A DNA stretch of 13,964 nucleotides from an uncultured cyanobacterium (GTDB lineage: Bacteria; Cyanobacteriota; Vampirovibrionia; Gastranaerophilales; Gastranaerophilaceae): NCBI GenBank assembly GCA_947073895.1, contig CAMTNN010000021.1:1-13964 (forward strand), in the 5' to 3' direction. Shown here piece by piece: positions 3,375-13,866 of this stretch. Each line of letters begins with the position of its first letter. Positions within the stretch are counted from its first letter, which is position 1. A program made the position numbers and the translations under genes. The notes under the pieces are model-generated. The model was given only the letters and a program-made list of their open reading frames with translations. It searched no databases and was not told the DNA's origin.

Positions 3375-3403
3375 ATAATAGCAAGAACAAACTAAAATTG
3401 CAA
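3375..3403 (-). promoter_or_regulatory. fabI promoter, sigma70-type with extended -10
   Basis: On the - strand: -35 TTGCAA (3398-3403), 17-base spacer, -10 TATTAT (3375-3380) preceded by TGC, an extended -10. A start near 3368 gives a leader of about 28 bases. The -35 touches the end of the intergenic repeat. Confidence 0.7.
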
Positions 3404-3521
3404 ACCCTACACCCACCAATGCGAACCCACCTGTAACAAAGTCAGCAGAGGACGACGTGTAGTTACACATTCAAAGTTCTAGTATTGCTATTGTCGTCCG
3501 ACCCTCGTCTACGTGCGTAGC
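3402..3521 (-). repeat. dispersed intergenic repeat, copy 1
   Basis: Read on the - strand, two blocks match a second copy at 13742-13866: block A (3521 down to 3492, 28 of 30 bases equal) and block B (3456 down to 3422, 30 of 35 equal). All seven differences are transitions. Between them lie 35 unrelated bases. GGACGAC at the end of A pairs with GTCGTCC at the start of B (3450-3456 with 3493-3499). A small hairpin (GTGT/ACAC, 3457-3468) sits just inside. The tail is G-rich. The element lies exactly between a terminator and the fabI promoter. Not recognised as a known family. Confidence 0.75.
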
Positions 3522-3523
3522 AC

Positions 3524-3554
3524 AAAAAAAAACCACTCGGTGTGTGTCGAGTGG
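3524..3554 (-). terminator. intrinsic terminator of the ORF-free unit
   Basis: On the - strand, a 7-bp stem (3548-3554 with 3533-3539) with an 8-base CA-rich loop is followed by nine T (3524-3532). It is a textbook rho-independent terminator and lies upstream of the fabI promoter, so it does not end any recognised gene. Confidence 0.85.
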
Positions 3555-3649
3555 GTTTGTTTTCTGCATCCTAATGGTCTTTTTTAGTGTTTATTATCTA
3601 GGAGTTTATATGATTTTTGGGGTTATTATTACTATTTAGTGTTTCGGCT

Positions 3650-3662
3650 ACACTTAAAGTGT
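3650..3662. promoter_or_regulatory. perfect 6+1+6 palindrome at the predicted transcript start
   Basis: ACACTTAAAGTGT is a perfect inverted repeat around one base. It begins about where transcription from the TTGACA promoter should start, so it may be an operator at +1 or a 5' hairpin. No known regulator site is recognised. Confidence 0.35.
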
Positions 3663-3668
3663 GTATTT

Positions 3669-3698
3669 ATATTATTGCGCATAAAAATTTGATGTCAA
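3669..3698 (-). promoter_or_regulatory. sigma70-type promoter of the ORF-free unit
   Basis: On the - strand: consensus -35 TTGACA (3693-3698), 18-base spacer, -10 TAATAT (3669-3674). It lies downstream of the lpxA terminator, so it starts a separate transcript reading toward fabI. Confidence 0.6.
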
Positions 3699-12539: not shown

Positions 12540-13733
12540 ATGTCATTAGTAAATGTAATATCAGCAATCGGTAATAATTCAAGCATTTATCCGCTACTTG
12601 TAAGGGACTGCGGAATTGAAATTCCGTCTAAAGTAGGCATGACTTATACTCAGAATCTTAAAGATTCTAAACAAATGGCAAACAATGCTGTTCGAGAACG
12701 TTTAATCGATGAATACGGAACATCTGCAATATGGCTAGGCGGAATTCCTTTAATGGATTGGTTATGCGATAAAGGAATCAAAAAACTAGGTTATAATCCT
12801 AAAATTAACTCTGCTTTATTCAAAGAAAACAATAAACAGGGAATGCAATTGAATATTGATAAATTTAAAGAATACGCGCCAAAAGAAGTTAAGGAAATGG
12901 AAAAAGTTCTAAAAAACAAAAAGACCTTTGAAAGACTTCTTGCTGGTAAATTTATACTTTCAACCGCAATTCCTGTGGCATTAATGGGATATTTTTTACC
13001 AAAAGCGAATTTTGCTTTAACAGATAAAATCAGAGAGAAACAAAAAGCGAAAGAAGAAATTAAAGCCGGTAATAATCCAACTTTCAAAGGAGGAGCAATA
13101 ACCGCGTTAGCTAATATGTCTACAGTTAACAAAATGGCTGTAACAGATGGAGGTTTAACTGTTGGTCGTGTAGCTACTGCAAGAAACAAGTTTGAAAAAA
13201 TGGAAATGGCATTCAAGATGGGCGGTATGATGTTTCTAAACTTCGTTGCACCGCTTTTACTAGCAGAAGGATTGGACAAATTATCAGGAAAACTTTTCAA
13301 TACAAATGTTAATCTTGATCCGAAAATCCTAAACGACAAAGAATTCATAAAATCAATCAAAGAAGGAACATTAAAACTTCCACAAGAAGACATAATCGAA
13401 TTCTTAGACAAAAACCCGGATGAAAAATTTTCAAAAATGGTTCAGAAGTACTGTGGCGTAAACTATCTTGAAAACGGCAAAAGAGACCCGCGTTCTTATG
13501 TTGACGAAAAGAAAATCAAAGCTTTCCAAAAAGAAATTGAAAAATTCGCAACTCAAGCTAAATCAAGCGGTGACATAGAAAAATTCGCAAAAAAAGCTCT
13601 AAAAGTAAAATCAGGTAACATTATAGCAAACGTAGCAATAAGCAGCTTCCTACTCGCAGTAGCTCTACCAAAAGTTACATTCATGCTCCGCAAAAAAGTC
13701 ACCGGCTCCGACGCCGAACCCGGTCTTTTATAA
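12540..13733 (+). CDS. membrane protein of unknown function with an FKG motif
   Basis: 397 residues; family not recognised. GGAG lies 11 bases before the ATG, a little far. Hydrophobic stretches that could be membrane segments or buried helices: about 62-76 (TSAIWLGGIPLMDWL), 133-154, 224-244 and 359-382. Between them are charged, Lys-rich helices (116-130, 161-176, 323-356). Residues 180-184 read PTFKG, the motif also found as LSFKG in the GH13-like protein upstream. No signal peptide at the N-terminus. The last 13 or so codons (GTC ACC GGC TCC GAC GCC...) are much richer in C-ending codons than the rest, and a weak hairpin (ACCGG/CCGGT, 13701-13724) followed by CTTTTA overlaps them. The intergenic repeat starts 8 bases after the stop. 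The gene is led by its own promoter, short ORF and hairpin. Confidence 0.75.
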   Translation: MSLVNVISAIGNNSSIYPLLVRDCGIEIPSKVGMTYTQNLKDSKQMANNAVRERLIDEYGTSAIWLGGIPLMDWLCDKGIKKLGYNPKINSALFKENNKQGMQLNIDKFKEYAPKEVKEMEKVLKNKKTFERLLAGKFILSTAIPVALMGYFLPKANFALTDKIREKQKAKEEIKAGNNPTFKGGAITALANMSTVNKMAVTDGGLTVGRVATARNKFEKMEMAFKMGGMMFLNFVAPLLLAEGLDKLSGKLFNTNVNLDPKILNDKEFIKSIKEGTLKLPQEDIIEFLDKNPDEKFSKMVQKYCGVNYLENGKRDPRSYVDEKKIKAFQKEIEKFATQAKSSGDIEKFAKKALKVKSGNIIANVAISSFLLAVALPKVTFMLRKKVTGSDAEPGLL

Positions 13734-13741
13734 CAAGGGGG

Positions 13742-13866
13742 GCTACGCACGTAGATAAGGGTCGGACGACATTTCATAAGACAACAAGTTAGGAAGTATA
13801 GCTTCTGGTCGTCCTCTGCTGACTCTGCTACGAGCGGGTTCGTGTGGGTTGGGGTTAATAGGGTTT
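13742..13866 (+). repeat. dispersed intergenic repeat, copy 2
   Basis: Second copy, on the + strand: block A 13742-13771, variable centre of 36 bases, block B 13808-13842, then a G-rich tail to GGGTTT. The outer stem GGACGAC/GTCGTCC (13764-13770 with 13808-13814) is kept exactly. The inner hairpin has a different sequence from copy 1 (GAAG/CTTC, 13793-13805) at a similar place. It lies between convergent genes and its tail overlaps the end of the right-hand gene. Confidence 0.75.
13836..13863 (+). other. four-tract G-quadruplex motif
   Basis: GGG-N7-GGG-N2-GGGG-N6-GGG meets the usual G-quadruplex pattern, rare in such AT-rich DNA. Copy 1 of the repeat has a weaker version with three GGG tracts plus GG pairs. 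It overlaps the stop codon of the opposing gene. Confidence 0.5.

Follow-up and report, generated by a model that had tools for sequence, protein, structure and literature searches.

An apparently undescribed family of small interspersed repeats from one genus of gut bacteria, with many units starting exactly at gene 3' ends

Results

The window, by which we mean the whole stretch of 13,964 nucleotides that was analyzed, carries two copies of a repeat. Copy 1 lies on the minus strand in the region upstream of fabI, and copy 2 lies on the plus strand, where it starts 6 bases past the TAA stop codon of the open reading frame at 12540-13733. The features are as follows.

3410..3523, minus strand: copy 1 (head, stem, center, stem, tail), from blastn and covariance-model matches; 3' boundary approximate
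3509..3523, minus strand: head of copy 1, GTGCTACGCACGTAG, from the sequence; it adjoins the T-run of the terminator-like site
3493..3499, minus strand: 5' stem arm of copy 1, GGACGAC, from sequence and stem covariation
3450..3456, minus strand: 3' stem arm of copy 1, GTCGTCC, from sequence and stem covariation
3533..3554, minus strand: terminator-like site with a T9 tail abutting copy 1, from a terminator scan; consensus matches only
3698-3671, minus strand: promoter-like site upstream of the terminator-like site; consensus matches only
13740..13853, plus strand: copy 2, from blastn and the covariance model; 3' boundary approximate
13740..13754, plus strand: head of copy 2, GGGCTACGCACGTAG, slightly altered and beginning GGGC, from the sequence
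13764..13770, plus strand: 5' stem arm of copy 2, GGACGAC, from the sequence
13808..13814, plus strand: 3' stem arm of copy 2, GTCGTCC, from the sequence

A preliminary description of this DNA had set out two blocks shared by the copies (placed at 3402-3521 on the minus strand and 13742-13866 on the plus strand, which we confirm) around a variable center. On recounting, the identities proved exact (28 in the 30-base block and 30 in the 35-base block), all seven differences are indeed transitions, and the block ends pair as GGACGAC/GTCGTCC on each copy's own strand. The centers measure 35 and 36 bases; they are variable but not free, in that CTAC-type motifs recur in them across the genus. Copy 1 had also been placed between a terminator and the fabI promoter, and we can uphold that the T9 tail of a terminator-like site stands directly before it in the region upstream of fabI. 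The promoter-like and terminator-like sites at 3698-3533 (minus strand) may bracket a short putative transcript, and 3533-3698 gave no Rfam match. In the relatives compared, the sequence upstream of fabI lacks conservation, so this region offers no empty-site comparison. In a blastn search of the copy 1 region against its own genome, 22 matches were obtained at an E value of ≤0.1, some only 17 to 44 bases long, and copy 2 was found at an E value of 1.7e-14; these results exclude a chance likeness of the two copies.

The units of this repeat are about 85 to 115 bp long and consist, in order, of a head, a GG.C block, an arm, a center, an arm, and a tail. The head has 15 bases and is able to form a small hairpin, the arms form a long-range 7-bp stem of the form GGnnnnn/nnnnnCC (from which one subfamily, in genome G058, deviates), and the tail carries CTAC motifs. 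The center is 35 or 36 bases long in 74 of 84 units, all of which had been picked for having the stem. About 35 copies are present in the window's own genome (G000; 1.5 Mb, 84% complete; relatives Gastranaerophilales), where a covariance model of 93 positions gave 36 matches at an E value of ≤0.01 in 30 loci, with one place counted twice and a weakest E value of 0.007. These further copies, which the preliminary description had named as a check, lie in varied surroundings; we saw neither an absence of additional copies nor a confinement to one known insertion sequence.

The covariance model was run on 155 genomes of the order, with the best 27 candidates scored per genome, and it matched 13 of them: eight in the genus and five elsewhere in its family. 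Within the genus, G000 and G052 had at least 27 copies each, five more genomes had 14 to 24, and G020 had 4; G033, another genus member, gave no match to the model. Four of the five genomes outside the genus had one weak match each and the fifth had four. A pattern of the head and the following GG..GG was present in 31 of 65 genus genomes and the reversed control pattern in none. Some units stand alone and others form head-to-tail arrays; 61 of 67 neighboring heads less than 160 bp apart were spaced by 102 to 113 bp. With many dispersed, mostly intergenic, noncoding copies shorter than about 200 bp, the family belongs among small interspersed (MITE-like) repeats in the broad sense; mechanical open reading frame calls covered 14 of 103 heads. 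Twenty-six of the 116 stem-bearing units in a pattern census lacked a head, a few of them probably being chance matches. At one locus (L059, G068:C1), tandem duplication has copied a unit along with the start of the next gene, which captures an array in the act of growing. Another genus of the same family also has a unit with the GGACGAC stem but no head (L446, G186:C48:2197-2275), through transfer or shared ancestry.

The claim that no named family has this core agrees with an Rfam scan of the window, which returned zero matches, and scans of six further loci gave 6 matches, all under the gathering score. Copy 1 had no blastn match in phage and plasmid collections. Viral contigs scanned with a 14-mer yielded 86 stretches, and in the six inspected (L142 to L147) the rest of the unit was absent. 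A search of open-licence PMC text on Gastranaerophilales repeats, REP/RAYT, intergenic repeats located 3' of stop codons, ERIC/BOX/MITE, and group IIC introns returned no title on the repeat family. The two stretches in the window are members of an apparently undescribed repeat family within one genus of gut bacteria.

To examine the stem without bias, we picked the 3' arm only for standing ahead of CCT; of 95 qualifying units, 10 had no such position. The arms were fully complementary over seven pairs in 73 of the remaining 85 units and in 16 of 23 distinct arm pairs. At the three most variable stem positions, 84% were paired, compared with a mean of 43% and a maximum of 61% in 2,000 shuffles. 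A broader set of 26 distinct arm pairs, selected for pairing, held 178 Watson-Crick pair cells and 4 G-U cells, and the pair counts of another alignment (A2) are circular because its units were chosen for complementarity. Two head variants are also compensated (GTACTACGTACGTAG and GTGCTAAGCACTTAG). The stem is thus kept complementary, as the preliminary description had proposed to check with a covariance model: its sequence varies by compensatory change, with 16 fully complementary stem types within one genus. We infer that it acts in its DNA or RNA form. Folding of whole copies 1 and 2 was no better than that of shuffled sequence (z = +0.25 and +0.27), and support for an RNA function is accordingly weak.

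The position of the units relative to genes was determined for 103 full heads with enough flank, as the offset to the stop codon on the same strand. This offset was -1 in 25 heads, at which the element's first G completes a TAG, 0 in 15, +2 in two, and +6 in one; no head lay at offset 1, 3 to 5, or 7 to 37. Hence, 40 of the 103 heads, and 40 of the 43 between -1 and +37, sat at exactly -1 or 0, against 53 of 11,400 positions drawn at random from these loci. The remaining heads stood directly behind a T-run (23 heads), behind one palindromic repeat (15), behind two other repeat families (8 and 3), or in other places (11). The left gene was on the same strand for 69 of the 87 heads with a called left gene, and two heads had no left gene. 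A looser census, which took in additional loci and less strict heads and measured from the nearest stop, found 52 of 128 at -1 or 0, 4 at 1 to 5, and 2 at 6 to 37, and its figures differ for that reason. The stop-adjacent genes encode 29 proteins in about 19 groups, among which, judged from sequence, are presumably RpsH, RplF, RpsN, YbaB, and a class II aldolase. On contig 83 of G000, a tRNA-Arg gene and a unit share one base, which ends the gene and is the unit's first G. The idea that the target is a hairpin immediately before the stop codon found no support at 29 sites: the mean folding energy there was -4.9 kcal/mol, against -4.6 kcal/mol in windows taken upstream, with a mean z of -0.08.

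These results show that head-bearing units have their 5' end precisely at gene 3' termini much more often than expected by chance. Selection that merely favored harmless sites is insufficient as an explanation, because heads are nearly absent at +3 to +37. The rule is limited to units with a head, because most headless units are preceded by a T-run and four of the six inspected (L455, L457, L460, and L469) are antisense, 12 to 15 bases before an ATG. These ATGs open frames of more than 130 codons, and the AAAGGT of the antisense units, judged by its place, could serve as a ribosome-binding site.

Next, we compared orthologous sites. The ybaB-recR spacer is filled in 6 genomes, with three stem types, and has no unit in 21, where it can be as short as three bases (3 of 30 loci were unreadable). 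Sites ending in TAG made up 6 of 6 filled and 5 of 21 empty recR sites (P = 0.0016, kinship ignored; the stop position in G047 was taken from the head-placement census). In rpsH-rplF, the place right behind the stop codon is held, depending on the species, by single units, arrays, or unrelated repeats, and other species have neither (eight of 30 loci were unreadable). Terminators with a common 24-base motif before the hairpin had a unit in 15 genomes and none in 10, and these units abut the T-run with nought to two extra G's; because the motif occurs twice in G052, the sites were not counted as orthologous. No clear target-site duplication was found, the rpsH and recR readings being ambiguous and no close filled/empty pair fixing the 3' boundary, and no inverted ends were seen by eye. 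Since the rpsH, rplF, aldolase, and ybaB sites are filled in several species, part of the family may be vertically inherited. The preliminary description had offered a spreading element or a structured RNA family. Filled and empty sites bear out the spreading, and the RNA half comes out weaker, given the folding result and the many copies behind terminator T-runs.

We also searched 64 genus genomes for a mobilizing partner. Y1_Tnp, the RAYT domain, was matched in 36 of them, with no correlation (18 of 31 head-bearing genomes versus 18 of 33 others; P = 0.81), and RVT_1 was matched in 15 (7 of 31 versus 8 of 33; P = 1.0), with no match in G000 at its 84% completeness. IS630-type DDE_3 genes are movers of TA-targeting repeats; DDE_3 was found in 0 of 64 genomes, and the TnpB zinc ribbon was found in 2, neither of them head-bearing. 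We therefore rejected RAYT/REP, IS630, TnpB, and reverse transcriptase as mobilizers, as none tracks the repeat in these genomes, and no parent insertion sequence was seen among the Y1_Tnp, RVT_1, DDE_3, and TnpB matches. Head and stem pattern searches at eight Y1_Tnp loci gave no unit, one partial match in L210 being judged chance. Upstream of the RAYT-like Y1_Tnp gene of L211 lies an inverted repeat of other sequence, GTAGGTTGGGCA...TGCCCAAC, and L212 has the same stem with GTCG. This REP-like repeat (GGTTGGGCA...TGCCCAAC) has a related one within the coding sequence.

Discussion

The placement described here is very precise, at a stop codon, a terminator tail, or, once, a tRNA end, so that the rule reads gene ends. 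To our knowledge, small bacterial repeats occupy spacers without keeping a strict distance to the genes, and we know of no transposase that would explain gene-end placement without a visible sequence motif. We consider it likely that the units form a genus-level family of nonautonomous small interspersed repeats, placed at gene 3' ends. Such units would depend for their movement on an enzyme or host process acting in trans, which would recognize hairpins in single-stranded DNA or RNA and join the element's 5' G to the 3' boundary of a gene, and arrays would grow and shrink via recombination between heads. A unit within an operon becomes the spacer and is probably transcribed.

Alternatively, the unit could be a structured RNA element of 3' untranslated regions and operon spacers (an mRNA stabilizer or a processing or translation-coupling signal), under selection and spread by recombination rather than transposition. 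The compensatory stem changes and the frequent same-strand left neighbor are consistent with this, as is the recurrence of units after rpsH, rplF, and rpsN and the fact that, in several operons, the unit fills almost the whole spacer to the next start codon. However, copies 1 and 2 fold like shuffles, many copies stand behind terminator T-runs, the same site is filled in some species and empty in others, and four headless copies are antisense just 5' of start codons, which makes this explanation possible but unlikely. That the unit is a repeat of the REP/BIME type, mobilized by a RAYT transposase, we regard as very unlikely. The unit does contain GTAG, which marks one superfamily of REPs, and Y1_Tnp is frequent in the genus; yet no unit turned up at the eight Y1_Tnp loci searched, the inverted repeat at L211 and L212 is a different one, and two near-complete genomes, G046 and G068, carry units without any Y1_Tnp match. 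In the accessible text on GTAG REPs and RAYTs (PMC3733652, PMC2817692), REPs are likewise palindromic and extragenic, and their termini are reported to give TAG stops to flanking open reading frames (PMC3733652), but they are 20 to 40 bp long and flank their own transposase gene, whereas our unit has about 110 bp, a 35-base loop, and no Y1_Tnp link that we could find.

Group II introns start with GUGYG. The 5' end of our unit begins GTGC, and the target behind terminator T-runs is the same as that of group IIC introns, which insert right after intrinsic terminators, so that the units might be remnants of such introns. That origin is highly improbable, given that scans of the window and six loci gave no group II match in Rfam, that G000 had no RVT_1 match, and that the units are only about 110 bp long. 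The terminator preference and precise placement of bacterial-C introns are described in PMC8919778, and sites at stop codons and tRNA ends, which our family uses in addition, are absent from the part of that description available to us. Finally, the head pattern also matches tmRNA genes of Planctomycetota, among the matches listed (ARAGORN confirmed three of five records), and the head could thus derive from the 3' part of tmRNA. We give this next to no credence and rejected it on the genus's own tmRNA genes, which mostly read CTACACTCGTAGA (CTAAACTCGTAGA in G002) and not CTACGCACGTAGA; moreover, the similarity stops short of the T arm.

In the boldest reading, the unit would be a SINE-like element of bacteria, guided in its insertion by RNA 3' ends; its 5' end would be joined to the 3' terminus of a cellular transcript, and the joint product would enter the genome. 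The termini would be a terminator U-tract, a tRNA end, or the end left when an mRNA is cleaved at its stop codon (A-site cleavage being one example), and this reading fits because terminators, a tRNA end, and stop codons are all used. Against it stand the lack of an RVT_1 match in the 84%-complete own genome and a tRNA junction without the CCA of mature tRNA, and we hold it to be quite doubtful.

As a nonautonomous interspersed repeat, the family can be likened to BOX or ERIC repeats. ERIC repeats are intergenic and, at about 100 to 130 bp, similar in length to our units, but they are imperfect palindromes over their whole length. They are named in the accessible part of a review (PMC10969869). 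BOX repeats of Streptococcus pneumoniae, going by the available text of PMC3049150, are also short, modular, and intergenic, with repeated inner modules and predicted stem-loops, and they likewise cluster with other repeats and are nearly confined to one species group. BOX differs in having both terminal inverted repeats and target-site duplications (PMC3049150), neither of which was established for our family, and in our family the 5' end is fixed to gene 3' termini. The same text describes SPRITE repeats as enriched near the 3' ends of coding sequences, as our units are; however, SPRITE is itself terminator-like, whereas our unit comes after a separate terminator or stop codon.

Other repeats stand close to the units. 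Repeat X (CCGGTGTGAAGTCCG...GCAATCTTTGATTGCACAGGCGG, about 130 bp) lies in the rpsH-rplF spacers of L158, L178, L238, and L248, often directly 5' of a head. Repeat Y (CGGATTTTG...; L235, L239, L242, L246, and L250) starts exactly behind the rpsH stop codon in several species, and repeat Q (GTTACTTTTTCTTT.CTAAAAAGAAAAAGTAACCAAAAAGAAAAG) lies directly 5' of units in G000 and G059 (L453 and L461). Offsets of -1 or 0 were found for 4 of 9 Y, 2 of 3 Q, and 2 of 16 RAYT REP copies (both strands) and for 0 of 10, 0 of 17, and 0 of 6 copies of other repeats. Two further families, Y and Q, may thus share the stop-codon habit, and because they do sit at stop codons, a host-level cause of this placement is possible. 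In G058, fourteen variant units (L148 to L157 and L159 to L162) lie directly 3' of the palindrome ATGTAACACAATACATATTGTGTTACAT; a second palindrome follows about 300 bp farther on in several of these loci, and prepilin-like open reading frames adjoin three of the five inspected.
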